Of a DNA stretch of 24,334 bases, positions 4,652 to 23,495 are shown piece by piece. The notes under the pieces were generated by a model. That model was not told where the DNA came from. It saw only the letters and a program-made list of their open reading frames with translations, and ran no database searches. The translations under genes and the position numbers were made by a program. This DNA is from a virus. Within the stretch, counting starts at the first letter, position 1. Each line of letters starts with the position of its first letter. The DNA is taken from positions 1 to 24,334 of IMG/VR virus record IMGVR_UViG_3300048834_001380, one strand, 5' to 3'.

Positions 4652-6935
4652 CCCACGCCAACTCAAGCCGGGTGAGCTCGCACGGCTCCTTAACAGCACG
4701 CCGCAGGGCGAGGTGATCAGCGAGCGGCAGCTCCACCGTCACCGGACGCGCGCGGGCTTCCGTGTTGCCGCTGACGGCGACGCGGGCAGGGTCGATCTGT
4801 TCCGCTACGTCGCCTGGCTTGTGACGACGCGGCACGAGGCGCTCGCCGAGGCGGCCCGCCAGCCGGAGGGGCTCACCGGTTACGAAGCGATGAAGGAGCG
4901 GGCGCGGCTCCGCAACGCGATGCTCTCGCTCTCGGGGCGAGACATCGGCGATCTGCCTGCGATCGCCGACCCCGCTCGGAGGGCGCGGGCCGCGAAGGAC
5001 TTTCGGTACTTCTGCGAGACGTACTTCGGGCAAACGTTCCACCTGAAGTGGTCCGACGACCACCTGAAGGTCATCGCGAAGATTGAACAGGCGGTACTCG
5101 AGGGCGGGCTCTTCGCGATGGCGATGCCGCGCGGCAGCGGCAAGACCAGTCTGTGTGAGGTCGCGTGCCTCTGGGCGTTGCTCTTCGGGCACCGCGAGTT
5201 CGTTGCGCTCATCGGCTCCGATGAAGAGCACGCCGCGGGGATGCTCGACTCGATCAAGGCGGAGCTGGAGAACAGCGAGATCCTCGGGGCTGACTTCCCC
5301 GAGGTCTGCCACCCGATCCGGTCCCTGGAGGGCATCCACCAGCGGGCCTCGGGGCAGCTCTACCAGGGCCGGCAGACGCACATCGGGTGGACGGCAAGAG
5401 AGATCATCCTTCCGACCATTGCCGGTTCCGTGGCATCGGGCGCCATCATCCGTGTCGCCGGGATCACCGGCCGCATCCGCGGCATGAAGCACAAGCGGGT
5501 CGACGGCGTGAGCGTTCGGCCCTCGCTTGTGCTCATTGACGACCCGCAGACCGACGAGAGCGCCCGCTCCCCATCGCAGTGCGCCAACCGCGAGCGCATT
5601 CTCGCTGGCGCGATCCTGGGCCTAGCCGGCCCAGGCAGGAAGATCGCCGGGCTGATGACGCTGACCGTCGTGCGCCCCGACGACCTGGCCGATCGCATCC
5701 TCGACCGGGACAAGCACCCGCAGTGGCAGGGCGAACGGACGAAGATGGTGTACTCGTTCCCTTCCGCAGACCGACTGTGGGCTGAGTACGCCCGCCTGCG
5801 GGCCGAGGGGCTCAAGGCCGATCGGGGCGGAGCGGAAGCGACCGCGTTTTACAAGGCCAACCGGGCGGAGATGGATGCCGGCGCGGCGATCGCCTGGCCC
5901 GAGCGATTCAATCACGACGAGCTGTCGGCCGTGCAGCATGCGATGAACCTGCGGCTGCAGAACGAGGCCGCGTTCCTCGCCGAGTACCAGAACGAGCCGC
6001 TGCCCGAGATCGAAGTCGCGGACGACCTGCTCAGCGCCGATCAGATCGCCGCCCGGGTCAATGGGCATGCCCGAAGCCTGGTGCCCTTGGGGTGTTCTCA
6101 CCTGACGATGTTTGTGGATGTGCAGGGCAAGGCCCTGTTCTACGTCGTCGCGGCGTGGGAGGACGACTTCACCGGCTCCGTCATCGAGTACGGCACGGAG
6201 CCGGATCAGAAGACCCCTCCTGGGGCATACTTCACGCTTCGCGACCTCAAACGCACGCTCGGCTCCGCTGCCCCTCGCGCGGGTGTGGAGGGCGCGATCT
6301 ACGGCGGGCTGGAGCGGCTGATCGAGGGGACGGTCGGACGCGAGTGGCGGCGCGACGACGGCGCGATGGTCCGGATTGACCGTTGCCTGATCGACGCCAA
6401 CTGGGGCTCCTCCACCGATGTGGTGTACCAGTTCTGCCGCCAGAGCCCGCACGCCAGCGTGCTCACGCCGAGCCACGGTCGGTATGTCGGGGCGAGCAGC
6501 GTGCCATTCAGCGACTACAAGCGCAAGCGCGGCGAGCGCATCGGTCTGAACTGGCGCGTACCGGTCGTCACCGGCAAGCGGGCCGTGCGGCACGTGCTCT
6601 TCGACACGAACTTCTGGAAATCGTTCGTGCACGCCCGGCTGAGCGTGCCGATGGGCGATCCCGGCTGCTTGTCGCTCTTCGGGCAACGGCCCGAGCATCA
6701 CCGGCTGCTGGCGGAACACCTGACCAGCGAGTACCGCGTTCGCACCGAGGGACGCGGCCGCACGGTCGACGAGTGGAAGCTGCGCGTCGATGGGCTCGAC
6801 AACCACTGGCTGGACGGATTGGTGGGCTGTGCGATCGCGGCGTCCATGCAGGGTGCGGTGCTCTTCGGCACTGACCAGAAGGTCGCGGCTCGACCGCGTC
6901 TGAGACTCTCGGCGCTCAAGGAGCGGCCGCGATGA
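4641..6935 (+). CDS. terL: Phage terminase large subunit
   Basis: A 764-residue packaging motor. An N-terminal domain of about 70 residues (KPGELARLLN ... RVDLFRYVAWLV) resembles the preceding small protein. The ATPase domain has Walker A (MPRGSGKTS, K168, T169) and Walker B (LVLIDD, D300-D301). The RNase H-like nuclease half has candidate metal ligands at D493 (FVDVQGKA), D585 (DANWG) and D720/D725 (DNHWLDG). It is larger than the usual 450-650 residues because of the N-terminal domain and possible insertions. The start is GTG 4641 with AAGGAG ten bases upstream, overlapping the previous gene. It cuts and translocates DNA into the prohead through the portal encoded downstream. Function is confident; the exact TerL subfamily is not. 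Confidence 0.92.
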   Translation: MAIDPRQLKPGELARLLNSTPQGEVISERQLHRHRTRAGFRVAADGDAGRVDLFRYVAWLVTTRHEALAEAARQPEGLTGYEAMKERARLRNAMLSLSGRDIGDLPAIADPARRARAAKDFRYFCETYFGQTFHLKWSDDHLKVIAKIEQAVLEGGLFAMAMPRGSGKTSLCEVACLWALLFGHREFVALIGSDEEHAAGMLDSIKAELENSEILGADFPEVCHPIRSLEGIHQRASGQLYQGRQTHIGWTAREIILPTIAGSVASGAIIRVAGITGRIRGMKHKRVDGVSVRPSLVLIDDPQTDESARSPSQCANRERILAGAILGLAGPGRKIAGLMTLTVVRPDDLADRILDRDKHPQWQGERTKMVYSFPSADRLWAEYARLRAEGLKADRGGAEATAFYKANRAEMDAGAAIAWPERFNHDELSAVQHAMNLRLQNEAAFLAEYQNEPLPEIEVADDLLSADQIAARVNGHARSLVPLGCSHLTMFVDVQGKALFYVVAAWEDDFTGSVIEYGTEPDQKTPPGAYFTLRDLKRTLGSAAPRAGVEGAIYGGLERLIEGTVGREWRRDDGAMVRIDRCLIDANWGSSTDVVYQFCRQSPHASVLTPSHGRYVGASSVPFSDYKRKRGERIGLNWRVPVVTGKRAVRHVLFDTNFWKSFVHARLSVPMGDPGCLSLFGQRPEHHRLLAEHLTSEYRVRTEGRGRTVDEWKLRVDGLDNHWLDGLVGCAIAASMQGAVLFGTDQKVAARPRLRLSALKERPR

Positions 6936-11365: not shown

Positions 11366-11749
11366 GTGGCGGACCTGCTCGAACAGGGCGCGGCGTTCCT
11401 GGACGACCAGCGGCACAAGCACATGAGCCGCACCGTGGTGTACCAGCGCGGGGCCGAAGCCAAAGAGGTCCTGGCGACCATCGGCAAGACCGAATTCGAG
11501 CAGGCCGACGACGCGGGGCTGATCCACCGCGTCGAGTCGCGGGACTTCCTTGTGCGGACGGCGGAACTGGACGTCGGGGCCGGTCCGATCATCCCGCGTG
11601 CCGGAGACCAGGTGCGAGAGGCGGTTGGGGCGCAGGTGTTCGTGTACGAGGTCAACGCGCCGGGCGGGCAGCCCGCGTTCCGGTACAGCGACCCGTTCCG
11701 CAGAGTTCTTCGGATTCACACCAAGCACATCGCCACGGAGACAACGTGA
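11366..11749 (+). CDS. Putative head-tail connector/head closure protein
   Basis: 127 residues from GTG 11366, with AAGGAG nine bases upstream. After a helical N-terminus (ADLLEQGAAFLDDQRHKHMS), the remainder is beta-rich (TVVYQRGAEAKEVLATIGKTEF, FLVRTAELDVGAGPIIPRAGDQV). This layout, helix then small beta-barrel, is that of head-closure or lambda FII-like proteins, and the position after capsid and decoration genes fits. Assignment rests on position and secondary-structure pattern, not a clear motif. It overlaps the next gene by four bases. Confidence 0.6.
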   Translation: MADLLEQGAAFLDDQRHKHMSRTVVYQRGAEAKEVLATIGKTEFEQADDAGLIHRVESRDFLVRTAELDVGAGPIIPRAGDQVREAVGAQVFVYEVNAPGGQPAFRYSDPFRRVLRIHTKHIATETT

Positions 11750-12003
11750 CCAACGGGAATGGACAGAACGGGACCAAGGCGAGGTGGGCGGGCGTGCTGG
11801 TCACGGTAGTGCTCGCCGCCGGCGCGATGACTGTGCAGTGGGGCGTGGTGACCACCAAACTCCAGCAGGTCGAGAAGCGCCTCGACGAGTTCATCGGTGA
11901 GGCGCGCTCGATCCGCACCGACTATCAGGCGATGGAGCGCCGCGTCTCTTACCTGGAAGGCAAGGTGGCGGGCCTGAACGCGGCGCTGGAGGCCCGTCCA
12001 TGA
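11746..12003 (+). CDS. Small membrane protein with coiled coil
   Basis: 85 residues, GTG start overlapping the upstream stop (GTGA). A short polar N-terminus precedes one membrane segment at about residues 14-33 (WAGVLVTVVLAAGAMTVQWG). A heptad-like helix follows (KLQQVEKRLDEFIGEARS, MERRVSYLEGKVAGLNAAL), so it is predicted to be a bitopic protein with a coiled-coil domain. This resembles XhlA-like or spanin/holin-accessory layouts, but placement inside the connector genes is unusual for lysis genes. It could instead be a membrane-associated tail or exclusion factor. Topology is well supported; function is not. Confidence 0.65.
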   Translation: MTNGNGQNGTKARWAGVLVTVVLAAGAMTVQWGVVTTKLQQVEKRLDEFIGEARSIRTDYQAMERRVSYLEGKVAGLNAALEARP

Positions 12004-12431
12004 GCACCATCGCCGGCATCGCCGACGCCATCACCGCGTACATCAACACGGGAACGTTCTCCCAACCGGTGAACGCCGTGCGGATGTACCAGCCCGCGTT
12101 CACGCTGGAGGAGTTGGCCGACCTGCGCGTCTCGGTCGTGCCCCGGACCACGGCGATCACGGCCGCCAGCCGCGACAGCAGCGTGTTCGAGTGCGTGATC
12201 GACGTGGGTGTGCAGAAGAAGCTCTCCGCCGAAGGTGCGGAGGGCGAGATTGACGCCCTGCTTGACCTGGTCGAAGAGATCACGGACCACCTGCGCCAGA
12301 AGCGACTGTCGGATGCGCCGGAGGCGGCATGGGCCGGCATCGCCCACGAGCCTGTGGTGTCGAGCGAGTCGCTGGAGCAACACCGGGTGTTCACGAGCGT
12401 CCTGAGCGTCACGTACCGGGTGCGGAGGTAG
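12000..12431 (+). CDS. Putative tail terminator/tail completion protein
   Basis: 143 residues, ATGA overlap with the previous gene. The pattern is an N-terminal helix (IAGIADAITAYINTG), beta strands (RVSVVPRTTAITAASRDSS, FECVIDVGVQKKL), a long helix (EIDALLDLVEEITDHLRQKR) and a final beta hairpin (VFTSVLSVTYRVRR). This alpha/beta pattern and the location between connector and tail tube genes fit tail terminator proteins such as lambda gpU-like folds. No diagnostic motif is visible, so the call is by position and secondary structure. Confidence 0.6.
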   Translation: MSTIAGIADAITAYINTGTFSQPVNAVRMYQPAFTLEELADLRVSVVPRTTAITAASRDSSVFECVIDVGVQKKLSAEGAEGEIDALLDLVEEITDHLRQKRLSDAPEAAWAGIAHEPVVSSESLEQHRVFTSVLSVTYRVRR

Positions 12432-12433
12432 CC

Positions 12434-12691
12434 GTGCGGAACATCGTGTTTATCAAGGTGGAGCTTGAGGAGAGCGACCGGCCCCTTTCCGATTCGCCGC
12501 TGGTGGCGACGTTCACGCTCATGGCGGCGCACACGAACACGCAGCCCATGACGCTATCCGACGGCAAGGGCGTCGAAATCCCGGTGCCGGCGGGCGTGCA
12601 GCTCCCGTTCGAGCGGGTCAACCTGGCGGACATCTACGTGCGGAGCAAGTCGGGCGATGTGGCATATGCGGTCGGCCACACGGCCGGATAG
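12434..12691 (+). CDS. Hypothetical small beta-rich tail-region protein
   Basis: 85 residues from GTG 12434, with GGAGG five bases upstream. It is almost wholly beta-type (NIVFIKVELEESDRP, ATFTLMAAHTNTQPMTLSDG) and contains ERVNLADIYVRSKSGDVAYAVG, suggesting a small beta-sandwich. No family is recognised. It lies between the tail terminator-like and tail tube genes and is likely a minor virion component such as a neck or tail decoration protein. It is well supported as coding because it fits the spacing and start signals of its neighbours. Confidence 0.6.
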   Translation: MRNIVFIKVELEESDRPLSDSPLVATFTLMAAHTNTQPMTLSDGKGVEIPVPAGVQLPFERVNLADIYVRSKSGDVAYAVGHTAG

Positions 12692-12706
12692 AGCAGGAGA
12701 AGGACG

Positions 12707-13135
12707 ATGGCGATCAAACTCGGCATGGAAGCCAAGCTCCTCTACAAGACCGGCGGTCAGGCCGGTGGCGGGGCGTGGACCGAACTCGGCAACACCCGTG
12801 ACGTCACGCTGAACCTAGAGGCGGGCGAGGCGGACGTGACGACACGTGCCAACAGCGGGTGGCGGGCCACCGTCGCCACGCTCAAGGAGGCCAGCGTCGA
12901 GTTCGAGATGGTGTGGGACACGGCGGATGCCGGGTTCACCGCCATCAAGAACGCGTTCTTCGGCAACGACCCGATCGGCTTCCAGATTCTCGATGAGACC
13001 AGCGGCCAGGGCCTGCAGGCGGACTTCTCCATCACGAACTTCTCGCGGAACGAGGCGCTGGAGGAGGCGATTACCGTGTCGGTCACCGCCAAGGTGACGT
13101 ACTCGGCGGCGGCGCCCTCATGGATCGGTGGTTAA
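12707..13135 (+). CDS. Major tail tube protein
   Basis: 142 residues, ATG 12707 preceded by AGGAGAAGG. The start MAIKLGMEAKLLYKTGG, then ELGNTRDVTLNLEAGEADVT and a repeated beta pattern ending FSRNEALEEAITVSVTAKV, are what I recognise from tail tube proteins of siphophage and related tails. These polymerise as hexameric rings around the tape measure. Its place directly before the chaperone pair and tape measure gene supports this. It is followed by a 64-base gap containing 11-bp tandem repeats. Confidence 0.85.
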   Translation: MAIKLGMEAKLLYKTGGQAGGGAWTELGNTRDVTLNLEAGEADVTTRANSGWRATVATLKEASVEFEMVWDTADAGFTAIKNAFFGNDPIGFQILDETSGQGLQADFSITNFSRNEALEEAITVSVTAKVTYSAAAPSWIGG

Positions 13136-13138
13136 GTC

Positions 13139-13182
13139 TGTCGGATCACTGTCGGGTTCGCGTCGGATTCCTGTCGGGTGCT
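13139..13182 (+). repeat. Four tandem 11-bp repeats in the late operon
   Basis: Between the tail tube stop and the ribosome-binding site of the chaperone gene lie four exact-period units: TGTCGGATCAC, TGTCGGGTTCG, CGTCGGATTCC and TGTCGGGTGCT. The core GTCGG(A/G)T is kept in all four. The 11-bp period is close to one helical turn, so all cores face the same side of the DNA. A regulatory or RNA-level role is possible. Confidence 0.75.
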
Positions 13183-13199
13183 GACTCACGGAGGCACGG

Positions 13200-13703
13200 A
13201 TGCAGTCATTCAAGGACAACCAAGGGCGGCAGTGGTCGGTCGAGATCAACGTCACCGCCATCAAGCGCGTGCGCGGCCTCACCGGCGAGGACCTCATGCA
13301 GGTCATCGAGGGGACGCTGATCGAGAAGCTGATCCGGGATCCCGTGTTGCTCTGCGATGTGGTCTACGCCATCTGCAAGCCCGAGGCGGACGCCCGCAGC
13401 GTTTCCGATGAGGAGTTCGGCAAGGCGATGGCGGGCGATGCCATCGAAGCCGCGACGACGGCGGTGCTGGAGGAACTCGTGGGTTTCTGCCCGAGCCCGA
13501 GGGACCGGGCCAACCTCGGGCGGGTGCTCCAGGCCACGCGGAAGGTGATGGACCGGGCGCGGGACCTGGTGGAGAAGAAGCTCGACAGCGGGGAACTGGA
13601 TCGGCTGGCGGACCGCCTGCTGGCAGAGGGATCACCGGAAGCGACTGCTGGAAGCTCGTCCATCAGTGCGCCGGAATCCTCGGCATCGACCCCGGCCCCC
13701 TGA
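13200..13703 (+). CDS. Tail assembly chaperone, G-like product
   Basis: 167 residues, ATG 13200 with GGAGG five bases upstream. It begins MQSFKDNQGRQWSVEINVTA and continues with a helical body (LIRDPVLLCDVVYAICKPEA, LGRVLQATRKVMDRARDLVEKKL). It ends in a low-complexity Ser/Ala/Pro tail (SSSISAPESSASTPAP) unlike the conserved part. The order tail tube, this gene, a short overlapping-frame gene, then tape measure is the hallmark of the G/GT chaperone pair that coats the tape measure during tail assembly. The odd tail suggests the stop frame is the non-shifted product. Confidence 0.8.
   Translation: MQSFKDNQGRQWSVEINVTAIKRVRGLTGEDLMQVIEGTLIEKLIRDPVLLCDVVYAICKPEADARSVSDEEFGKAMAGDAIEAATTAVLEELVGFCPSPRDRANLGRVLQATRKVMDRARDLVEKKLDSGELDRLADRLLAEGSPEATAGSSSISAPESSASTPAP
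13541..13703 (+). other. Probable -1 programmed frameshift zone
   Basis: In the -1 frame the sequence is open from at least 13541 to 13945. It encodes KLVHQCAGILGIDPGPLTLR leading without break into the second chaperone piece. No ATG, GTG or TTG exists in that frame between 13541 and 13717, so the conserved GIDPGPL part can only be made by shifting from the upstream frame. I see no canonical X XXY YYZ heptamer; the shift should occur before about 13650. Confidence 0.65.
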
Positions 13704-13717
13704 CCCTCCGTGATCTG

Positions 13718-13945
13718 GTGGCAATGCTCGACGGCAGGCAGCGCCACGACTGGTCGATCGCCTCCGCCGTCATGGCGCTCGTCGCCAACATCCACCGCGA
13801 CCCCAAGCGATCCCGCCGACTGAACCCCACCGACTTCGACCCCTTCGTCAAGCGCAACCGGCCCATCCCGGTCGGCGTGTCGGTCCTCAAGGACGTGTTC
13901 ATCGACGGCAAGATGCCCCCCATCCCCAAGGAGGCTCACGGATGA
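13718..13945 (+). CDS. Tail assembly chaperone, T-like frameshift extension
   Basis: 75 residues counted from GTG 13718, but the conserved family pattern starts upstream in the same frame (GILGIDPGPLTLRDLV, from about 13652). The usual product should therefore be a fusion with the preceding gene made by -1 frameshifting. The rest, MLDGRQRHDWSIASAVMAL then ANIHRDPKRSRRLNPTDFDP, is a pattern I associate with this class of tail chaperone. It ends overlapping the lipoprotein start by four bases. Independent initiation at 13718 is possible but would lose the conserved lead-in. In the GT form the T part would bind tail tube protein. Confidence 0.72.
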   Translation: MAMLDGRQRHDWSIASAVMALVANIHRDPKRSRRLNPTDFDPFVKRNRPIPVGVSVLKDVFIDGKMPPIPKEAHG

Positions 13946-14430
13946 AGTTCCTCAGCTCGCTTTCCACCCGCCATTACGTCTACATCGTCGGCCTGATGCT
14001 CATGGCGCTTGTGCTGGCGTCGTGCGCAGGCTTCGACCTGGGCGACCTCGTGAAGGTCAAGACGCCGAACACCATCCAGCAGACCACGGGGCTGCCATCC
14101 ACGCTCAGCCTGAACGAGGCCGAGGTCGAGTACCAGAACTGGTTCAACCAGACGCAGACGATCGGTGCGCAGTGGAAGGGCAACATCGAGAAGGCCGGCG
14201 AACTCCGTGGCCTGTTCAGCCAGCTCACGTTGTCGGCCCTCGACACCGTTGGGCCGACGGTCGCGGGCCTACCCGTGCTCGGCCCGGCGCTACCAGCGCT
14301 CACCGGGATCGTCGGCTTGTTCATCGGCTCGGGCCGGCTCCGCAAGGAGAAGGAGGCGTCGTTCAACAAGGGCCTGGAGAAGGGCAGCGGCCTCGCTGGA
14401 GTCCCCCCCAGCGGCGGGAGCGGCGTGTGA
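13942..14430 (+). CDS. Phage-encoded lipoprotein
   Basis: 162 residues with an N-terminal basic/hydrophobic signal and a clear lipobox L25-A-S-C28, so Cys28 should be lipidated after signal peptidase II cleavage. The middle is soluble (NEAEVEYQNWFNQTQTIGAQW). Near residues 100-130 a Gly/Pro/Leu-rich hydrophobic segment (GLPVLGPALPALTGIVGLFI) is followed by RLRKEKE, and the C-terminus is Gly/Ser/Pro-rich. A lipoprotein lying between tail chaperone and tape measure genes is unusual. Phage lipoproteins can block superinfection or act in lysis (outer-membrane spanins). The signal and lipobox are seen directly; the role is inferred. Confidence 0.75.
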   Translation: MKFLSSLSTRHYVYIVGLMLMALVLASCAGFDLGDLVKVKTPNTIQQTTGLPSTLSLNEAEVEYQNWFNQTQTIGAQWKGNIEKAGELRGLFSQLTLSALDTVGPTVAGLPVLGPALPALTGIVGLFIGSGRLRKEKEASFNKGLEKGSGLAGVPPSGGSGV

Positions 14431-14867
14431 TCACCATGCGGATCAAGGACATGTTCTTCGACCGCGCGGCGGTGGTCCGTGCGGTCGATGGGGCCAAGCG
14501 GAAGGTGCTCAGCAAGGCCGGCGCGTTCATCCGCACGGCGGCCCGCACGAGCATCCGCAAGCGCAAAGGGCCCGCACCCGCGGGCAAGCCGCCCCACTCG
14601 CACGAGGGGAGCCTGCGACGGCTCATCCTCTTCGGGTACGACAAGGCGGCGGACTCCGTGGTCGTCGGCCCCGTGGGCTTCAAGAAGAGCGTCGCGCCCA
14701 ATGTGCTGGAGTACGGCGGGGACACGGTCGTGCTGCGGCGCAGGGGCGGACGACTCACATCGCAGAAGGTCACGATCGCCGCGCGGCCGTACATGGCCCC
14801 GGCGCTGGAGCAGGAGCGGCCGAAGTTGCCGCTGCAGTGGCGGAACTCGATTCGGAAGGGGGCCTGA
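14427..14867 (+). CDS. HK97 gp10-like minor tail/neck protein
   Basis: 146 residues from GTG 14427, with GGGAG six bases before; an ATG at 14436 is a weaker choice. The helical, basic N-terminus (AAVVRAVDGAKRKVLSKAGA, FIRTAARTSIRKRKG) followed by PPHSHEGSLRRLILFGYD, SVVVGPVGF and ARPYMAPALEQE is typical of HK97 gp10/virion-morphogenesis type proteins that join head and tail. Normally these lie before the tail tube gene; here it follows the lipoprotein and precedes the tape measure. It overlaps the lipoprotein stop by four bases. Confidence 0.72.
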   Translation: MITMRIKDMFFDRAAVVRAVDGAKRKVLSKAGAFIRTAARTSIRKRKGPAPAGKPPHSHEGSLRRLILFGYDKAADSVVVGPVGFKKSVAPNVLEYGGDTVVLRRRGGRLTSQKVTIAARPYMAPALEQERPKLPLQWRNSIRKGA

Positions 14868-14870
14868 TCG

Positions 14871-16865
14871 GTGGCCGACACGCGGGGCATCCGGGCTGGT
14901 CGGGCGTTCGTCGAACTCGGCGTGAGCGACAAGCTCACGGCCGGGCTTCGTCGCGCCCAGAAGCAGCTCGAGGCCTTCGGCGCTGGCCTGCGGTCCGTCG
15001 GCACCCGGCTCGCGGGGATCGGCGCGACAGCGGTCGCGGCGCTGCTCGGCACGGCGAAGGCCTTCTCTGACACGGGCGACATGCTCGACAAGATGAGCCA
15101 GCGGACCGGCGTGAGCGTGGAGGCCCTGTCCGAGCTTGGGTTCGCGGCCGACCTCTCGGGCACCGACCTGGAAGCCCTGGAGGCCGGGCTCCGCAACATG
15201 CAGCGGACGCTCACGGGCGCGGCGCAAGGCTCGGCATCCGCGGGCGACGCCCTCGGGCGGCTTTGTCTGACCGCCGCCCAACTAGCGGGCCTCGCACCGG
15301 ATGAACAGTTCAAGGTCCTCGCGGAACGCATCTCGCAGGTGCGCGACCCCGCCCTCCGCGCTGCGCTGGCGATGGAGGTCTTCGGCAAGGCCGGAACGAA
15401 GCTTCTGCCGCTTATGGCGGATGGCGCGGCGGGCATCGAGGCGATGCAGCAAGAAGCCCGGCGCCTCGGCCTCACCGTCAGCACCGAGACCGCCCGCGAC
15501 GCCGCCGCGCTGAACGATGCCCTCGGCACCCTCTGGAAGGTGCTCAAGCAGGGCGTGTTCACGATCGGCGGCGCGCTCGCGCCCACGCTTAAGGACCTCG
15601 CCGAGCGGATCACCCGCATCGTCGTGAGCGTCACCACCTGGATCAAGGCCAACCGCGAGACGGTCGTGTGGGCGCTGAAGATCGCCGCCGCCGTCGCCGT
15701 GGCGGGCATCGCCATCATGGCGCTGGGGTACATCGTCACCGGCATCGGAGCGACCCTCGGCATCGTCGCGGGCGTGATCGGTGGCATCGGAACCGCCTTC
15801 AGCCTGATCGGAGCCGCCATCGCGGCGATCCTGCCGCCGGTCTGGCTGGCGATCGCCGCGATCGTGGCGCTCGGCGGCGTGCTCATCGTCACCACGGGCG
15901 TCGGCGGGGAGGCCCTCGCCTGGCTCGGCGAACAGTTCACGCGCCTGCGCGACTGGGTGACAAAGGTCGTCGGCGGTATCTCAGACGCCCTCGCGGCGGG
16001 CGACATCGCGCTGGCCGCCGAGATCCTGTGGCTATCCCTGAAGGTGGTCTGGCAGCAGGGCGTCGCCGCGCTGAACAAGGTTTGGCTGGAGGCCAAGGAG
16101 TTCTTCGTCTCCACCGCCTATGGCATGTGGTACGGGGCGCTGGCCGCCGCGGAGATCGTCTTCCACGCGCTCGAGATCGCCTGGATCGAGACCACGTCGT
16201 TCCTTTCCAAGACCTGGACCAACTTCACCACCGGCTTCCAGCAGGTGTGGGAGTCGGCATCGTCGTGGGTCGCCAAGCGGATGCTGGAGATCCAGGGGCT
16301 GTTCGACTCCGGGCTCGACGTGGACGCCGCGAAGAGGGCCGTCGATGATCAACTCGAATCCCGCCTTGCGGAACTGGAGAGCGCGGCCCAGCGGCAAGTG
16401 GCCGAGCGCGAGGGACAGCGCGAGGCCGAGCGCGAGCAAGCCGCCGCCCTGCACGAGGCAACCCTGGCCGGGATCGGTCGTGACTTTGAGGAGGCCCAGG
16501 CCGCGCTCAAGGCGAACACGGAGGCCGGGCTCGCGGAGTCGCAATCGGCGCTGGATGCCGCGAAGCAGAAGCTCGCCGACGCCATCGAGCAGGCCCGTCA
16601 GAAGCGCGAAGCGGCTGACGCTGAGCGCGGGCCCGGGCGCACGCCCCGCGACCTGATGGCCGAGTTCGAGGACCGCCTCGCCGGGCTCGGAGACGTCATT
16701 GGCAAGGGAATCAGCGTGCGCGGGACGTTCAACGTGCGCGCGGCGCAGGGCCTGGAGTCAGACGGAGGGGCCGCCGAGCGCACCGCCCGGGCCACCGAGC
16801 AGACCGCCAAGCACACCAAGCGCCTGGCCGACGCCGCGCATAGCGGCGGGCTGACGTTCGCCTAA
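14871..16865 (+). CDS. Tail tape measure protein
   Basis: 664 residues, GTG start three bases after the previous stop. The N-terminal part (SDKLTAGLRRAQKQLEAFGA then GDMLDKMSQRTGVSVEALSE) is characteristic of tape measure proteins. There is a long hydrophobic Ala/Gly/Ile-rich region at about 265-344 and a charged helical, probably coiled-coil region at about 490-590 (ERDGQ-type Glu/Arg/Ala repeats). The C-terminus is Ala/Thr/Lys-rich. Tape measure length scales with tail length at roughly 0.15 nm per residue, so this suggests a tail near 100 nm. It is short compared with many siphophage tape measures, which often exceed 1000 residues. Confidence 0.9.
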   Translation: MADTRGIRAGRAFVELGVSDKLTAGLRRAQKQLEAFGAGLRSVGTRLAGIGATAVAALLGTAKAFSDTGDMLDKMSQRTGVSVEALSELGFAADLSGTDLEALEAGLRNMQRTLTGAAQGSASAGDALGRLCLTAAQLAGLAPDEQFKVLAERISQVRDPALRAALAMEVFGKAGTKLLPLMADGAAGIEAMQQEARRLGLTVSTETARDAAALNDALGTLWKVLKQGVFTIGGALAPTLKDLAERITRIVVSVTTWIKANRETVVWALKIAAAVAVAGIAIMALGYIVTGIGATLGIVAGVIGGIGTAFSLIGAAIAAILPPVWLAIAAIVALGGVLIVTTGVGGEALAWLGEQFTRLRDWVTKVVGGISDALAAGDIALAAEILWLSLKVVWQQGVAALNKVWLEAKEFFVSTAYGMWYGALAAAEIVFHALEIAWIETTSFLSKTWTNFTTGFQQVWESASSWVAKRMLEIQGLFDSGLDVDAAKRAVDDQLESRLAELESAAQRQVAEREGQREAEREQAAALHEATLAGIGRDFEEAQAALKANTEAGLAESQSALDAAKQKLADAIEQARQKREAADAERGPGRTPRDLMAEFEDRLAGLGDVIGKGISVRGTFNVRAAQGLESDGGAAERTARATEQTAKHTKRLADAAHSGGLTFA

Positions 16866-16877
16866 GGAGACACGTTC

Positions 16878-17687
16878 GTGGCGATCACGGTGACGGAGAA
16901 GTTCGAGAGCCGCAAGTCCACCAAGGGCGACAATCCCTCGGCGGAGTTGGTCTACACCGTGCGCGGGACCAATGACGACCTCGCGGCCCGCAACGCGGCC
17001 GAGACGACAAGCCCCGCGACCTACGACGGCCAGCCCCGGCAATCCACCTCCGTCGAGCCCGTCGGCGATGAGCTGTGGGAGGCCGTGGTCCGGTACGGGA
17101 AGGCCCAAGGAGGCTCGCTCCCCGAGCCGGGCGAGAGCATCTTCTCCTTCGACACCGGCGGCGGCACGCAGCACATCACCCAGAGCAAGGAAACGGTGTC
17201 GTCGCACGCGCCCTCGGGCTCGTCGCCACCTGACTTCGGCGGCGCAATCGGTGTCACCGCCGACGGCGTCGAGGGCGTGGACATCACCGTCCCGGTCTTT
17301 CAGTTCTCCGAGACGCACTACTTCACCAACGACCAGGTCACGCCGTCGTACAAGGGCACGCTCTTTACGCTCACGGGCAAGGTGAACTCTGGCGCGTTCA
17401 AGGGGTTTCAGGCGGGCGAGGTCCTGTTCCTCGGCGCATCGGGCGCGCGGCGCGGCACCGATCCCGACGACGACTGGGAGATCACCTTCCGGTTCGCGGC
17501 CAGCCCCAACGCGAGCGGCATCTCGGTCGGCGACATCAGCGGCATCAGCAAGAAGGGGTGGGAGTACCTGTGGGTGCGGTACGCCGACCAGGAAGACACC
17601 GGATCGCACGCGATCGTGAAGCGCCCAGTCGCGGCGTATGTCGAGCGCGTGTACGACGAGGGCAGCTTCGCCGGACTGGGAATCTGA
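16878..17687 (+). CDS. Putative distal tail/baseplate protein
   Basis: 269 residues, GTG start with AAGGAG upstream. The protein is soluble and beta-rich. Its first half is repeated-strand sequence (AELVYTVRGTNDDLAARN, ATYDGQPRQSTSVEPVG) and its second half contains HYFTNDQVTPSYKGTLFTLTG and ISKKGWEYLWVRYADQEDTG. No named family is recognised with confidence. The position just after the tape measure is where distal tail (Dit-like) and baseplate proteins are encoded. There is no signal peptide or membrane segment, so a virion role is the best inference. Confidence 0.62.
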   Translation: MAITVTEKFESRKSTKGDNPSAELVYTVRGTNDDLAARNAAETTSPATYDGQPRQSTSVEPVGDELWEAVVRYGKAQGGSLPEPGESIFSFDTGGGTQHITQSKETVSSHAPSGSSPPDFGGAIGVTADGVEGVDITVPVFQFSETHYFTNDQVTPSYKGTLFTLTGKVNSGAFKGFQAGEVLFLGASGARRGTDPDDDWEITFRFAASPNASGISVGDISGISKKGWEYLWVRYADQEDTGSHAIVKRPVAAYVERVYDEGSFAGLGI

Positions 17688-17705
17688 CCCCCCACGAGGA
17701 GACGC

Positions 17706-18734
17706 ATGGGCGACCTGTTCCGCAAAGTCCGATCGGGCCAACCGCTCCGCATCCCCGCGGCGGCGTACAACGCCTTCGTTGACGCGGCGGTCGATCTGCG
17801 CCGACGGGAGCAGAATGCCAATGCGGGGCCCGCGCTGGAGCCGGCGCAGCGCGGCATCGTGTTGGTCCGCAACGACTCAGACGATGACATCGAGCCGTAC
17901 CACGCGCTCGCGATCACCGGCGTTCTGGTTCAGCCCGACAACGAGGACCAGGAGCGCACGTTCCACAGCCGCACGCCGCTGACGGGCGAGATCGCAACCG
18001 ACGAGTCGCCGTCGCTCTCGTTCGTGCTGGCCCTCCAGCCGATCAAGTCGGGCGAACTCGGCCGCTGCGTGCTCACGGGCGTCACGCCGGCGCGGGTCTA
18101 CATCACGAACGAGACGGATACGACCTGCGAGCTGGCTCCCGAGGAGACCATGCTGGCCAGCACGCCCATGGGCGGCATCCCGATCCTGTGGAAGGAGGAG
18201 GGCACCGGCGAGAAGTGGGCCGTCATCGAGATGGGTCAGCCGTCGCCCGGCCGCGTCACGGCGATCCTCGGGGCAGCGCAGCCTATTCCCACTGAGAACA
18301 ACCGCTGGCGCTACCCGTGGGTCGAGGCCCGGATCGACGGCGATCCCGGCAGCGACACCTACCTGCGCTATGTCCCCGTGCCCGAAGGGCTGTCCTCGCA
18401 GCTCCCCGGCGGCGGCGAGGACCCGACGCGGCTGGCGATCAACCGCTTCGAGGCCCATCACATGAACGACTTCGACCCCGGCTCGGGCTTCGGCGGCCTG
18501 CTGGGGTTGGGTCCGGTCTGTGAGTTGCCCGGCGTGCTGCCGAAGTGCCCGCCCGCGCGGTCGCTCAAGCCCAAGCTCGTGCCGATACCGGAGGGCGTCT
18601 GCGTGCAGCTCACCTGTGAGCGCAACAGCAAGGGCAGGCCGGTGTGGGTGTTCGAGGCGATGAGCCTGATTGAGATCGCCGACCCGGCCGACGAGAACCG
18701 CAAGTTCAACATCTACATCGAGGGAGGCGCATGA
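17706..18734 (+). CDS. Putative tail-tip structural protein of unknown family
   Basis: 342 residues, ATG 17706 with GAGGAG upstream. It starts GDLFRKVRSGQPLRIPAAAY and has a helical lead-in (NAFVDAAVDLRRREQNA). A beta-rich body follows (RGIVLVRNDSDDDIEPYHAL, GRCVLTGVTPARVYITNE), consistent with a trimeric or baseplate-type structural protein. The C-terminal part has a Gly/Leu-rich loop and several Cys (CELPGVLPKCPPARS, CVQLTCERNSKG) that might pair. No family is identified. It lies in the late operon and overlaps the methyltransferase start by four bases, linking virion and modification genes translationally. Confidence 0.62.
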   Translation: MGDLFRKVRSGQPLRIPAAAYNAFVDAAVDLRRREQNANAGPALEPAQRGIVLVRNDSDDDIEPYHALAITGVLVQPDNEDQERTFHSRTPLTGEIATDESPSLSFVLALQPIKSGELGRCVLTGVTPARVYITNETDTTCELAPEETMLASTPMGGIPILWKEEGTGEKWAVIEMGQPSPGRVTAILGAAQPIPTENNRWRYPWVEARIDGDPGSDTYLRYVPVPEGLSSQLPGGGEDPTRLAINRFEAHHMNDFDPGSGFGGLLGLGPVCELPGVLPKCPPARSLKPKLVPIPEGVCVQLTCERNSKGRPVWVFEAMSLIEIADPADENRKFNIYIEGGA

Positions 18735-19339
18735 GCACGACCTCCTTGACCAAGCCCACACTCGATATCCGGCGCGAGCACGAGCGGAAAAAGTACGTCG
18801 CGTTGGCCGCGCGGCCAGCCGCGCCCGGGACTGGGTATGGCGCAACCAACCACGGCGCGGCCGCGATCGCGCTCGTGCAGCGCCTGAAGCCCCGCTTCAT
18901 CGTGGACTTCGGGTGCGGGCGGAATGACTTCATCGGCGCGTTGCGGCGGGTCGGGATCGACGGGCTCGGCATCGACTTCGCCTTCCCCGAAGCGGACATC
19001 CCGCGGGCGATGCACAAGACCGGTCTGCTCGACGGCGTGGCCGACGTGGTGACAAGCTTCGATGCCCTGGAGCACCTTCTCCCGGAGGATGTGGACGCGG
19101 TGCTCGCCGAGATGCGGCGGCTGGCACGCCCGCGGGGTCACTTCGTGTTCTCGATCTGCACGCGTCCGAGCCGGACAACCGTCGCCGGCGAGGGACTGCA
19201 CCCCACCGTGCGGCCGCTGGCGTGGTGGCTGGATCGCATCGGCCAGGTCGGCACGGTGACGACGCCAAAGGCGGAGGGCCGCTACATCGTCGGGCGGTTC
19301 GCGGCCAAGGAGGGCCGGGGGGGGTGCGGCTGTGCGTGA
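18731..19339 (+). CDS. Class I SAM-dependent methyltransferase-like protein
   Basis: 202 residues, ATGA overlap with the structural gene before it. The Rossmann motif I is IVDFGCGRNDF. Later come GLGIDF (acidic ribose-binding position), VTSFDALEHLLPEDVDAVL and ARPRGHFVFS, the usual order of type-11 methyltransferases. The C-terminus ends in a GGCGCA stretch. It has no DNA-methylase DPPY motif, so a small molecule, sugar or protein is the likely substrate. Being coupled to a DUF115-like gene and a Ser-rich tail protein, it might finish a glycan, but that is inference. The last eight bases overlap the next gene. Confidence 0.8.
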   Translation: MSTTSLTKPTLDIRREHERKKYVALAARPAAPGTGYGATNHGAAAIALVQRLKPRFIVDFGCGRNDFIGALRRVGIDGLGIDFAFPEADIPRAMHKTGLLDGVADVVTSFDALEHLLPEDVDAVLAEMRRLARPRGHFVFSICTRPSRTTVAGEGLHPTVRPLAWWLDRIGQVGTVTTPKAEGRYIVGRFAAKEGRGGCGCA

Positions 19340-20234
19340 GAACCAGTCGGACATCGCGGCGCTTCAGGCGGGACTCAAGGCACGGAAGCCCGCGCGGGAT
19401 GGCCTGCGCCTCTACACAGCCGACTTCGACTCGGTCTCGCTCGCCGGGTTCTATCGCGGGCGTTCGGCGTTCCTGATCCTGTCGGGGCCGTCGCTCACGC
19501 AGGTGGACCTGATGCAGCTCAACAAGCGCGGCATCGTCACGATGGGGGTGAACAACTCCTGGTCCGTGCATCGCCCGACGCTGTGGACCTGCGTGGACGA
19601 TCCTGGCCGCTTCATCGACACCGGCTGGAAGGATCCCGGCATCCTGAAGTTCGTGCCGACGTGCGCGTGGGACAAGCGCCTCCGCATCCAGAATCCCGAC
19701 GGCACGATGCGTGCCAGCGCATTCAAGGTCCACCAGATGCCCAGCGTGCTGTTGTTCCGCCGCGCCGATCATTTCGATCATGCGCGGTTCCTCACGGGCG
19801 ACTCCGTGCCCTGGGGCAACGACGCCAAGCACGCGGATTCTCTCGGCATCACCGGCAAGCGGAGCGTCATGCTTGTCGCCCTGCGCCTCCTGCATCACCT
19901 CGGCTTCGGCACGGTGTACCTGCTCGGCTGCGACTTCAAGATGGCGACCGACCGCAAGTATGCCTTCGAGGAGCACCGCGCCCCCAACGCCATCCGGCAC
20001 AACAACGTCCTGTACGACTCCCTGGCCCGCCGCTTCGAGGCCCTGCGGCCGCACTTTGACAAGCACCGCTTCCGCGTCATCAACTGCTCGCCCGGCAGTG
20101 AGCTCCAGGCGTTCGAGCGCATGGACTTCGCCGCGGCGGTGAAGGCCGCATCCACTGAGTGCGGCAAGCCCGTGAGCACGCAGGGCTGGTACGAACCCAA
20201 TCCGAAGCCGACCCCGCAGGAGGCCGCCCGATGA
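19332..20234 (+). CDS. DUF115/MptE-like or sialyltransferase-like protein
   Basis: 300 residues, GTG start overlapping the methyltransferase. The pattern SAFLILSGPSLTQVDLMQLN then GIVTMGVNNSW, LWTCVDDPGRF and YLLGCDFKMATDRKY resembles proteins of the DUF115/MptE-like group and Cst-type sialyltransferases. This set includes Maf flagellin glycosyltransferases that modify Ser/Thr. The GPS and LLGCDF motifs are placed as in those folds. The C-terminal tail is polar with several Pro. Enzymatic activity is not provable from sequence, but an NDP- or CMP-sugar transferase is the leading idea. It lies immediately before a tail protein with dense serine repeats. Confidence 0.68.
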   Translation: MRENQSDIAALQAGLKARKPARDGLRLYTADFDSVSLAGFYRGRSAFLILSGPSLTQVDLMQLNKRGIVTMGVNNSWSVHRPTLWTCVDDPGRFIDTGWKDPGILKFVPTCAWDKRLRIQNPDGTMRASAFKVHQMPSVLLFRRADHFDHARFLTGDSVPWGNDAKHADSLGITGKRSVMLVALRLLHHLGFGTVYLLGCDFKMATDRKYAFEEHRAPNAIRHNNVLYDSLARRFEALRPHFDKHRFRVINCSPGSELQAFERMDFAAAVKAASTECGKPVSTQGWYEPNPKPTPQEAAR

Positions 20235-21586
20235 GCGACGGCCCGACCCGATACTATTTATACATCCCCGTCTGGGCGACGGGCCGTCCGCCCACGGGTG
20301 GCGGGTCGAGCAACTACTCCACGCCGTCGGGTTCGACGCCCGAGAGCACCTACTCGACGCCGACAAGCACGCCGAGCATGCCGTCGAGCTATTCGACGAC
20401 GGGCGATGTCATCTACACGACCGGCTCCGGCGGAACGCCCACGCTCACGTTCTACACCACCGGCGCCTTCACCAGCAACACTTCGGGGACGACGCACACG
20501 CCGTCGAGCAGCGGGTCGAGCGACTCCATGTCCTCAGGATCGACGGGTTCGAGCAGCGGCACGCCGACATCATCGTCAGGCTCGATGTCGTCCAGCGGGG
20601 GATCTTCGTCGGGATCATCGTCGAGCGGGTCCTCCAGCAGCGGGTCTGGCTCTTCGAGCGGATCGGGGTCATCGGGTTCGGGCAGTAGCGGACAAAGCAG
20701 CGGAATGTCCAGCGGCGCTTCATCCGGCGCCAGCAGCGGCATGAGTTCCGGAGCCTCGTCCGGCGCATCCTCCGGAGGATCATCCGGCGGCGGCTCGTCT
20801 GGTGGAGGATCGTCCGGCGGCGGTGGTTCGAGCGGCGGTGGTTCCGGCCCCGGTGGGTCCGGTCCAGGCGGCTCGGGTCCGGGCGGCAGCGGGCCGGGTT
20901 CCGGCCCCGGCAGCAACTGCCTCCTCTTTGGGACGCTCGTACGCCTCGAGGACGGCCGCCTTACGCCCATCGAGAACCTCAAGCCGGGCGACCGCGTGGC
21001 ATCCATCCAGGTGCCCGGCCTGGAGGTCGATGTCCCCTACCGCGCCCAGTACAACTGGCTCTCGCACCACGGCCTGCACGGCGCAACGCCCGTCGCTGCC
21101 CGCGTCGCCAGCATCCGCCTCGGCGAGCACCACGGCTTCATCGTCATCAACCGCCGCCTGAAGGCGACGCCCGAGCACCCGTTCATGATCCGCCGCGGCG
21201 ACGAGTGGGGCTTCGCGTCCGCGGAGTTCATCCAGGCAGGCGACTTCCTGATCGACGAGCACATGAACGAGGAAGAAGTCGATTCGGTCCTCCGTATCGA
21301 CGCCCCGACACGCACCGTGGCCATCCACATTCCCGGTACGAACACGCTTCTGGCCGAGGGAGTGTGGGTCCACAACGACATGCCCGCTACGGCCCACAGC
21401 GGCTCGAGCGGATCATCCTCCGGATCGGGCTCTGGTTCCGGTTCGGGATCGGGGTCAGGGTCAGGATCGATGTCTGGATCAACCAGCGGGTCGTCCAGCA
21501 GCGGATCGTCGTCCCGCAGCAAGTCTAGCGGGTCGTCCTCGTTCTCGACCTCTGGGTCCACGTCCGGCAGCGGTCTGGCAGCATGA
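20231..21586 (+). CDS. Ser/Gly-rich tail protein with internal Hint (intein-like) domain
   Basis: 451 residues from ATG 20231 (AGGAGG seven bases upstream, overlapping the previous stop). Residues 1 to ~95 are Thr/Ser/Pro-rich with short YSTP and TTG patterns. Residues ~96-228 are almost pure Ser/Gly with some Pro. Residues 230-382 form a Hint domain: Cys230 opens block A (CLLFGTLVRLEDG), block B has T313-P-E-H316, and it ends GVWVHN with H381-N382. At 153 residues it has no homing endonuclease. The residue after Asn382 is Asp, not Cys, Ser or Thr, so ordinary protein splicing is unlikely and cleavage is expected. A second Ser/Gly tract (390-451) follows. The position at the end of the tail genes suggests a fibre or adhesin; that and the self-processing are inferred. 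Confidence 0.8.
   Translation: MSDGPTRYYLYIPVWATGRPPTGGGSSNYSTPSGSTPESTYSTPTSTPSMPSSYSTTGDVIYTTGSGGTPTLTFYTTGAFTSNTSGTTHTPSSSGSSDSMSSGSTGSSSGTPTSSSGSMSSSGGSSSGSSSSGSSSSGSGSSSGSGSSGSGSSGQSSGMSSGASSGASSGMSSGASSGASSGGSSGGGSSGGGSSGGGGSSGGGSGPGGSGPGGSGPGGSGPGSGPGSNCLLFGTLVRLEDGRLTPIENLKPGDRVASIQVPGLEVDVPYRAQYNWLSHHGLHGATPVAARVASIRLGEHHGFIVINRRLKATPEHPFMIRRGDEWGFASAEFIQAGDFLIDEHMNEEEVDSVLRIDAPTRTVAIHIPGTNTLLAEGVWVHNDMPATAHSGSSGSSSGSGSGSGSGSGSGSGSMSGSTSGSSSSGSSSRSKSSGSSSFSTSGSTSGSGLAA
20510..20916 (+). repeat. Low-complexity Ser/Gly-coding repeat tract
   Basis: The DNA is made of short degenerate repeats of the type AGCGGGTCG and TCCGGCGG coding Ser-Ser-Gly and Gly-Gly-Ser units, ending in several GGTCCGGG-type (GPGGS) units. 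A similar tract lies at 21400-21580. Such tracts can change length by slippage. Antisense frames here stay open only because of the repetition. Confidence 0.7.
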
Positions 21587-21639
21587 GCGGATCGAGCAGC
21601 CCGTCCGGCGGTGGGTCAGGGTCGGTGATCGAGCAGTAG
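21583..21639 (+). other. Tiny 18-codon frame overlapping the fibre stop
   Basis: ATG 21583 overlaps the tail protein stop (ATGA) and reads MSGSSSPSGGGSGSVIEQ before a TAG. It keeps the Ser/Gly composition of the upstream gene in the -1 frame, so it may be the leftover of a slippage event or a reading frame reached by a shift. A functional peptide is not supported beyond the overlap. The rest of the gap to 21667 shows no clear terminator. Confidence 0.35.
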
Positions 21640-21667
21640 CTGACTCAGAGCGCGGTCTCACGAGAAG

Positions 21668-22519
21668 TCACATCGCGCGAGCCAGCCTGGCCTTGATGCG
21701 GAAGTAGGTGGCACGGGAGGCGCCGGTGATCTCGGAGAATCTCACGGCTCTGGCCTCCTCCGTTCGCATCGATGGGTCGTGCTGCATCGCGAGCACACAG
21801 GCAACGCGGCTGTCGGGCACCACCATCTGCAGCAGGCTCGCTCGCCAATCCGACAAGCCCGCCTTTCTCAGTTGCGAGCCCTTGCAGTAGTGCCGCATCG
21901 ACACCGCCGGGATCATCGGCAGGAGATGCTCGATGAACCCGTAGACATCCGGGTCGTTCAGCCACGCACCGACTCTGCGGTGCACTTCCGTGTTAGAGGG
22001 GTTGAAGTGCAGAATGATCGCGCGGTCCTCGAGCGCCCGGACGTTTGGATTCAGGCTCTTCCATTCGTTGGCGATTAGGATCACGCTGCTGGTCGTGGTG
22101 AACGACGAGGGGACCCTCCCCTCGTTCATCGTCAGATTGGTGAGCCAGTTCAGTCGCTTTTCGCGCACGGTGTTGCACAAGGCCTTCAGGAGCCGAACGC
22201 AGTCGCTGTCCGCGTACAACCGATCGAGGTCATCCAGCACGACCGCTTGGCCACGATGCTCCCAGAGCTGCCGATAGAGCCCGAATGGCTGCGTGTGGCC
22301 CTCCACATAGAGCACCCGCACGTCAGCGGCGCTCGACCGCTCGGGTACCCCGAGCGTGCGACGAACAATCTCGCTCTTGCCAGTGCCGTGCCTCCCCAGC
22401 AGAAGCACAAGCCCCAGTTCACCCCTCGCGAACTTGGAGATGTACAGCTCCAGCTGCGCGTACTCGGTCAGACGGATGACCTCGGGCGGCAGGGTCGGAG
22501 ATCGTGATCGAGTCGGCAT
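21668..22519 (-). CDS. AAA+ ATPase with C-terminal helix-turn-helix
   Basis: 283 residues from ATG 22519 (GAGG eight bases upstream). An alternative start nine codons earlier is less likely. It has Walker A at 42-49 (GRHGTGKS), Walker B VVLDDLD at 93-99, a sensor-1-like VILIAN ending at Asn151, and RALEDRAIIL with a possible arginine finger. The last ~40 residues (RFSEITGASRATYFRIKARL) look like a helix-turn-helix. The ATPase part is the size of helicase loaders or MuB/TniB-type transposition ATPases, but I cannot place it in one family. It is the last gene of a minus-strand operon after a repeat protein and a RepB/ParB-like gene. It converges on the late operon, so its transcript would oppose the fibre gene. 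Confidence 0.78.
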   Translation of the reverse strand: MPTRSRSPTLPPEVIRLTEYAQLELYISKFARGELGLVLLLGRHGTGKSEIVRRTLGVPERSSAADVRVLYVEGHTQPFGLYRQLWEHRGQAVVLDDLDRLYADSDCVRLLKALCNTVREKRLNWLTNLTMNEGRVPSSFTTTSSVILIANEWKSLNPNVRALEDRAIILHFNPSNTEVHRRVGAWLNDPDVYGFIEHLLPMIPAVSMRHYCKGSQLRKAGLSDWRASLLQMVVPDSRVACVLAMQHDPSMRTEEARAVRFSEITGASRATYFRIKARLARAM

Positions 22520-22549
22520 GGTGTGTGCCTCGGGACACAGGATCAAGAG

Positions 22550-22620
22550 CGATGAGACATTGAGACTTCTAGCGGTTTCGTCGCTGCTACACGCTCCCTT
22601 CTGGTCTCACGGGCTCATCG
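22550..22620. repeat. Imperfect inverted repeat upstream of the ATPase gene
   Basis: The left arm at 22550-22566 reads CGATGAGACATTGAGAC and the right arm at 22604-22620 reads GTCTCACGGGCTCATCG, 14 of 17 positions complementary and separated by 37 bases. The left arm also contains an 8-bp tandem unit, TGAGACAT-TGAGACTT (22553-22568). The right arm lies in the 3' end of the repeat-protein gene. The site may be an operator or an RNA stem controlling the ATPase gene. Confidence 0.55.
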
Positions 22621-23495
22621 CCCTGCGACTGACCATCGGGGGATTCAGCACTCTCCGCCCGCGAGTCTCGCGTGGCTTTCGAGCGCCGCCCTCTGTGCTC
22701 GGCGGGATCAAGGCCCGCCGCGCAGATCGCATCGTCCCAACTTCCCAAACATCGCTTTGCCGCACCGTACAAGCTCGAGTCGTCCCGAGAAACAGCCCAG
22801 GCGTTGATCCTCAACCCCTCGCGCAGCCGTTCTCGGATGGCCTCGACGATCCGTTCCTTGCCCCACGGTGCCCGCGCCTCGCCCGCAGACGCATCCCGCC
22901 GTGACGTCTGCCTGCTTCGGGAACGCTTCGATCGTCGAGGCGGCAGGTCGGCGGATCGGGGGTCTATGCCCGCAGCGGTCAGCGCAGCGTGCCAGCTGCC
23001 GAAGAACCGCTGGCCCGACTCAACGAGGGATCGGGGCTCGATTAGCCTCGCCACCAGTGGCTCTCCCCGGAGTGCACGCGTCAGAATCGCCTCGATGACC
23101 CGTTCCCGGGTCCACGGAACGACGCGCTGGAGCTTGGTCGGATCGACACCCGCCGCGAGCACGGCCTTGGACCAGGAGCCGAAGTGCCGGCGAGCCGCGG
23201 ATACGAGGTTGTGGTAGCGTTGGTCAATCTGGTCAGTTGTCAGCGGCCGGCGGCGGCGTGAGATCTGCCGGATTTTCGCCAGGATCTTCGCCGGTGACCA
23301 GCGCTCCCACGTCATGACTCGCTCGGGCGGGATGCCCGCCGCGACGATCGCGTTCCGCCATGATCCGAATATCCGGCGCGCCGCCGAGTACAGCAAGGGA
23401 TCGACGCCCTCTCCGCTGGCGTTCAATGCGAGTCCATCGGCCTCCCGCTCAAGGATGTAGCGGAGGATCCTTTCTCGTGTCCACCTGGTGCGCAT
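22587..23495 (-). CDS. Four-repeat DNA-binding protein (homing-endonuclease-associated repeats)
   Basis: 302 residues built from four diverged ~55-60 residue repeats at about 3-58, 62-123, 125-183 and 213-265. Each starts with a W-T/S-x-E/K-x-I helix and ends AARRxFGSWxxAxxAAG(I/V/L)DP, for example SAARRIFGSWRNAIVAAGI and GAAKRCLGSWDDAICAAGL. This is the pattern of homing-endonuclease-associated (HNR) repeats, three-helix DNA-binding units. An Arg/Ser-rich linker separates repeats three and four, and the C-terminus is polar and probably disordered. No HNH or GIY-YIG nuclease motif is present, so this looks like a sequence-specific binder. It starts two bases after the RepB/ParB-like gene and is co-transcribed with it. 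Confidence 0.8.
   Translation of the reverse strand: MRTRWTRERILRYILEREADGLALNASGEGVDPLLYSAARRIFGSWRNAIVAAGIPPERVMTWERWSPAKILAKIRQISRRRRPLTTDQIDQRYHNLVSAARRHFGSWSKAVLAAGVDPTKLQRVVPWTRERVIEAILTRALRGEPLVARLIEPRSLVESGQRFFGSWHAALTAAGIDPRSADLPPRRSKRSRSRQTSRRDASAGEARAPWGKERIVEAIRERLREGLRINAWAVSRDDSSLYGAAKRCLGSWDDAICAAGLDPAEHRGRRSKATRDSRAESAESPDGQSQGDEPVRPEGSV

Follow-up and report, generated by a model that had tools for sequence, protein, structure and literature searches.

What phage-encoded glycosyltransferases act on is a question raised by a compact gene cassette in IMG/VR virus record IMGVR_UViG_3300048834_001380, a stretch of 24,334 bases analysed here in full (hereafter the window). The cassette comprises four plus-strand genes: P0004 (17706–18734), encoding a 342-residue tail-end protein of structural type; a class I S-adenosylmethionine (SAM)-dependent methyltransferase (MT; 18731–19339, ATG start, 202 residues); a glycosyltransferase with a predicted Maf/MptE/CstII fold (GT; 19332–20234, GTG start, 300 residues); and a serine-rich virion-type protein with an embedded Hint domain (20231–21586, 451 residues). 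An earlier note on this DNA had described end-to-start overlaps of 4, 8 and 4 bases; reading of the sequence confirms these and shows that they span four genes, P0004 being the first (P0004/MT, 4 nt, ATGA; MT/GT, 8 nt; GT/Ser-rich gene, 4 nt, ATGA). We consider phage-encoded O-glycosylation of the Ser-rich tail-end protein the best explanation of this arrangement and hold it with moderate confidence; methylation of the glycan is likely, though less certain than the O-glycosylation.

The glycosyltransferase assignment is carried by predicted structure. An AlphaFold2 (AF2) model of GT, built from 37 sequences, reached a predicted local distance difference test score (pLDDT) of 92 and possesses a Maf_flag10/CstII-like catalytic fold. 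Its best VIA match was the Maf flagellin glycosyltransferase 5mu5 (Z 14.5 over 199 residues, root-mean-square deviation 3.5), followed by the MptE-type HPPK 8sd5 (Z 10.9) and CstII 1ro8 (Z 10.2), while Foldseek by itself puts CstII first. This is the structural comparison with Maf and Cst enzymes that the earlier note had proposed, and it bears out the DUF115/Maf-like call. GT also matches phrog_4603 in PHROGs (E 1e-11); no relative was found by tblastn among deposited phages, and NCBIfam gave no informative name for either GT or the Ser-rich protein. The call of a methyltransferase proved equally sound: MT matches the Pfam families Methyltransf_23 (E 2e-11; 44.2 bits against a cut-off of 27) and Methyltransf_11 (E 2e-9), both over the cut-off and placing it among class I SAM methyltransferases, as well as phrog_24759 in PHROGs.

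Serine makes up 27% of the 451 residues of the putative acceptor. It is concentrated in an N-terminal Ser/Gly-rich arm (residues 1–229, 20231–20917; 37% Ser, no Lys) and a C-terminal one (residues 383–451, 21377–21586; 51% Ser), the remaining called genes of the window having 0–10%. The very high serine density claimed previously thus holds for both arms but not for residues 230–382, which form the Hint domain, a feature absent from the earlier note. Since the Ser codons are mixed (TCG 40, AGC 35, TCC 28, TCA 11, TCT 8, AGT 2), the tract is not a DNA microsatellite, and an origin as a repeat artefact was rejected. A longer open reading frame (ORF) starting with GTG at 20159 is unneeded: the ATG at 20231 gives the 451-residue product, whose N-terminus YYLYIPVWATG is conserved in relatives. 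The 3′ end of the gene (window 21560–21640) is unlike that of close relatives; the protein ends in GSGLAA there, and another short frame, MSGSSSPSGGGSGSVIEQ, shares 4 nt with the stop. Either a frameshift or natural variation may account for this divergence.

Relatives of GT were gathered from viral contigs and genomes; the close set comprises 123 distinct loci (numbered with the prefix L) at no less than 60% identity, mostly from Phycisphaerales genome bins. Of the testable loci, 114 of 120 have an MT gene directly upstream of GT, and 105 of 110 have a Ser-rich ORF immediately after it. Among the exceptions inspected, L136 retains MT with an ORF intervening before GT, the start of GT is truncated in L186 and L189, and the Ser-rich gene stands slightly further from GT in L172 and L138. 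The intervening ORF of L136 (9208–9786, reverse strand) appears to be an insertion into an otherwise overlapping cassette. The MT–GT–Ser order is therefore kept in nearly every relative, in line with the coupling that the earlier note had described; a scattering of the three genes among related phages, which it had named as evidence to the contrary, was not seen.

Shared ancestry alone could explain synteny inside one phage group, so more distant glycosyltransferases, found in other phages and in Verrucomicrobia, weigh more. Adjacency was scored on ORFs, because a codon-model gene caller misses Ser-rich stretches; an ORF counted as Ser-rich with at least 20 Ser/Thr in 40 residues, and GT and background genes were treated alike, with the proviso that some ORFs may be spurious. 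On this scale, 9 of 25 GT clusters outside the group adjoin a Ser-rich ORF, compared with 9 of 174 other genes at the same loci (Fisher p 4e-5). The neighbour in L201 appears spurious; its score of 18 lies under the threshold. The distant Ser tracts can differ in sequence type (L122 and L123, for instance, carry SSSSESSPSSES repeats), and most Ser-rich neighbours of GT relatives have no family in Pfam or PHROGs. L123 and L056 are two more loci in which GT stands beside an unrelated Ser-repeat gene. GT–MT fusions occur in L058, L114 and L187, while in L122, L123, L191, L192, L194 and L207 GT is joined to domains of GT8-, GT32- or GT9-like type, of Methyltransf_24 type, or of both kinds. The survival of the association as fusions, and beside unrelated Ser-repeat genes, strengthens the case for co-occurrence.

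Further enzymes gather on the Ser-rich gene. In sister lineages two GT32-type genes come directly after it; genes of this type follow it in the lineage with the Hint type CVLAGT and in a Hint-less clade, with 4-nt overlaps in L032, and they are present at 42 of 42 loci of Hint type CVLAGT and at 0 of 62 loci of other types, the window included (some contigs are counted twice). In L190, a Methyltransf_24 gene directly follows the Ser-rich gene. Hint type and GT32 presence are thus perfectly associated (L020, L030, L032 and relatives vs. the window). Between the Hint-type lineages GT is 81–88% identical and the Hint only 54–58%, as though the gene of the Ser-rich protein had swapped its 3′ half as one block.

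Gene order points to the probable location of the acceptor. The window carries a terminase-like gene (4641–6935), a tail tube protein gene (12707–13135) and a tape measure protein gene (14871–16865; phrog_8462), all upstream of the cassette, and a gene without family (16878–17687) lies between the tape measure gene and P0004. P0004 itself has no family match in Pfam or PHROGs; its homologue in L187 is fused to a Ser-rich tail (BLASTP E 2e-27). In that locus the four genes of the cassette are condensed into two overlapping fusions, P0004–collagen-like–Ser-rich and GT–MT, the collagen-like repeat being of a tail-fibre-matching type. On account of this gene order and fusion, the Ser-rich protein, whose gene closes the tail module, probably belongs to the tail tip or to a fibre and is exposed at the surface.

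A CMP (cytidine monophosphate)-nonulosonate donor for GT is plausible, as the host genomes encode both NeuB (11 of 11) and a CMP-sugar synthetase, whose gene stands beside that of NeuB in 10 of 11; a host Maf also lies within about 4 kb in 6 of 11. One Phycisphaeraceae chromosome, CP054186.1, contains four GT loci (L136, L143, L166 and L168), so that a single cell may house several related prophages. Maf enzymes transfer nonulosonic acids from CMP donors to Ser/Thr of flagellin (PMC11339370). By analogy, the Maf-fold GT would transfer a sugar from a CMP donor, probably a nonulosonic acid made by the host, to Ser hydroxyls of the Ser-rich arms, and MT would probably methylate that glycan, the protein being a less likely target.

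Several observations weigh against this proposal. GT scores 16.6 bits with Pfam MptE-like (PF01973; curated cut-off 34.6), its distant relatives reach at most 29.5 bits, likewise under the cut-off, and the score with CST-I (PF06002) is 14.5 bits against a cut-off of 25. GT is also shorter than a full-length Maf (300 residues vs. 632 in 5mu5): its residues 29–278 align with the central 255–517 of 5mu5, and the flanking N- and C-terminal domains are missing. The Ser-rich protein matches no virion-protein family. By the ORF scoring, 16 of the 25 distant GT clusters lack an immediately adjoining Ser-rich ORF, and the Ser-rich neighbour in L204 is an RHS-type protein that does not look like an obvious phage component. 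NeuB is common, being encoded in 9 of 14 control genomes as well, so that the presence of a donor is compatible with the proposal but not specific to it. The L204 arrangement (11728–18969, in an Akkermansiaceae genome bin) consists of a 656-residue GT relative followed by a 2413-residue protein of RHS/laminin-G type whose N-terminal part bears a Ser tract, and the GT–Ser pairing may therefore reach beyond phage tail proteins.

The Hint domain (20918–21376) extends from Cys230 to Asn382. Pfam matches to PT-HINT, Hint_2 and Intein_splicing were all sub-threshold. A profile of the Hint family nevertheless matched the bacterial intein-like (BIL) domain 2lwy of C. thermocellum (hmmsearch, E 1.6e-6), and the same structure was the best Foldseek match of an AF2 model with pLDDT 93 (E 7e-9, TMt 0.86); the Tetrahymena BUBL BIL2 domain came second, ahead of many inteins. 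The predicted catalytic residues are C230, T313-P-E-H316 and H381-N382. All 95 distinct homologues have Cys1, nearly all have TPEHP or TFEHP as block B (TxxH), and every Hint with a sequenced end except that of L141 terminates in His-Asn. At +1 the window protein and most of its relatives have Asp, so that the window protein lacks the Cys/Ser/Thr nucleophile of class 1 inteins; five relatives have Thr at this position, one has Ser and one has Tyr. In L141 HH-D replaces HN-D, with Cys1 and the Lys motif described below kept; C-terminal Asn cyclisation is expected to be lost there. Type-A BILs carry a terminal His-Asn and no +1 nucleophile, and they chiefly cleave and can splice (PMC4031507). 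With its Hint fold, N-terminal Cys, block-B TxxH, His-Asn end and +1 Asp, the window domain agrees with this type. Self-processing is likely from these residues: Cys230 would form a thioester and Asn382 would cyclise, and the glycosylated arm might be released, spliced or ligated after synthesis.

The C-terminal arm, which begins with the +1 Asp, contains one further conserved element. In the window it reads KSSGSSSF (21521–21544), and its lone Lys431 is a candidate acceptor for the Hint thioester. The N-terminal arms of 91 homologues hold 0 Lys in 18,365 residues, while the strict motif K-S-S-G-S-S-(S)-[F/M] occurs in the C-terminal arm of 87 of the 91, the four exceptions being near variants. 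A relaxed pattern, composed post hoc after inspection of these exceptions, fits 89 of 89 (shuffled mean 1.0). Ten Hint clusters, less than 70% identical to one another, show the motif 17–54 residues past the Hint, and five Hint-less alleles lack it, a distribution that suggests Hint-catalysed cleavage or Lys ligation. The BIL2 domain of BUBL1 is a BIL domain known to form a Lys isopeptide bond (PMC8616854). Since BUBL BIL2 is also the second-best fold match and the Lys motif is conserved, we tentatively raise the idea, to which we give a low probability, that the Hint may act as an ATP-free ligase: the thioester between Cys230 and the Ser-rich, glycosylated N-terminal arm would be attacked by the lone Lys of the same or a neighbouring copy, giving an isopeptide-linked or polymerised tail glycoprotein. 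Caution is due, because the Hint and the C-terminal arm are co-inherited and the motif may reflect shared ancestry together with another function, e.g., assembly.

The alternative that survives best retains glycosylation by the cassette and treats the Hint as an inert or purely parasitic mini-intein relic with no virion role. Hint-less alleles at the same position (L038–L044, L170 and L171) and Hint types that look swapped between close relatives, whose GTs are 87–88% identical but whose Hints only 55–57%, speak for it. We find it unlikely, however, in view of the near-invariant catalytic residues, of a Lys motif confined to Hint-bearing alleles, and of the ratio of nonsynonymous to synonymous substitution (Ka/Ks), which is 0.06–0.23 within one Hint type (six of seven relatives; 0.56 against L030, whose Hint is of a different type). 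Against eight relatives the ratio is 0.13–0.30 for MT and 0.10–0.20 for GT, and these low values place MT, GT and the Hint region under purifying selection.

Cell-surface glycans are also among the targets of GT42/Maf-fold enzymes, and prophage carriage is likely because close relatives occur in contigs of Phycisphaerales genomes. GT and MT could thus serve lysogenic conversion, altering the host surface glycan against superinfection, with the Ser-rich gene an unrelated neighbour. This would leave unexplained why the genes overlap start to stop at the end of the late tail module, why glycosyltransferases of different lineages accompany non-homologous Ser-repeat genes, and why extra GT32 and methyltransferase genes likewise cluster on the Ser-rich gene; we judge it rather improbable. 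Hypermodification of phage DNA by GT and MT is highly improbable: phage glycosyltransferases are known to modify DNA (PMC12619734) and a window gene at about 1012–2454 matches a phage DNA methyltransferase family (phrog_498, E 9e-129) and, in its N-terminal part, ParB-like partition proteins, but solved members of the Maf/CstII fold target protein or glycan, MT matches general class I models rather than DNA methyltransferase families, and both genes are placed in the tail module.

Past the cassette, on the minus strand, lie an AAA ATPase-like gene (21668–22546) and a gene with homing-endonuclease-associated HNH_repeat motifs (22587–23495); homologues of both also adjoin the cassette in L010.

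Returning to O-glycosylation of the Ser-rich protein, the cassette bears on the substrates of phage glycosyltransferases in that synteny, gene fusion and repeated occurrence next to non-homologous Ser-repeat genes, in phages and in Planctomycetota and Verrucomicrobia genomes, tie a probable enzyme to its putative acceptor and to accessory enzymes. The Hint domain and the conserved downstream Lys raise the further question of whether intein-like chemistry ligates or releases parts of a phage surface glycoprotein. If true, the ligase activity would give viruses an equivalent of the BUBL BIL reaction, joined to phage-encoded O-glycosylation. Glycosylated phage virions are, to our knowledge, known from few systems. 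No paper on planctomycete prophages with a serine-rich tail, or on intein-like domains in phage tail fibers, was found in literature searched without most subscription papers.

Among known systems, the Maf flagellin O-glycosyltransferases are the closest to GT in structure (5mu5), and the Maf family carries out Ser/Thr O-glycosylation of protein (PMC11339370); GT, in contrast, is a phage-encoded catalytic fold only, and its putative acceptor is a Ser-rich virion-type protein instead of flagellin. The GT42 sialyltransferases CstI/CstII share with GT the fold (Z about 10) and the motifs GPSL, LG...YL.G.DF and YAF, whereas the sequence match is weak (E 0.013) and under the Pfam CST-I cut-off. The parallel to serine-rich adhesin systems drawn in the earlier note is an analogy at most: Ser-rich-repeat adhesins are glycosylated by GtfA/GtfB with SecA2, while Pfam detected no GtfA/GtfB-type domain in the cassette and GT shows only MptE-like/CST-I similarity. 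In mycobacteriophages (Freeman et al. 2023, via PMC12619734), glycans are likewise carried by phage capsid and tail proteins; the sites described are C-terminal, on capsid and tail tube subunits, and do not belong to a separate Ser-rich protein.

For the Hint domain, type-A BILs such as C. thermocellum 2lwy are the top match in sequence and fold and share Cys1, TxxH, His-Asn and the lack of a +1 nucleophile; the window Hint differs in being flanked on both sides by Ser/Gly arms within a phage protein, in the conserved Lys motif downstream and in being optional within its family. BUBL BIL2 of Tetrahymena (6y75/6tmm) resembles it in fold and forms a Lys isopeptide (PMC8616854), yet its acceptor Lys belongs to a folded ubiquitin-like domain, whereas the candidate here sits in a Ser-rich tail. 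Erwinia phage Alexandra gp112 and the "large intein domain protein" of Phage NCTB also combine a Hint bearing Cys1 and HN with a location among tail-fibre genes; their Hint, unlike that of the window, stands at the extreme C-terminus, and the body of the protein is collagen-like or of another kind.

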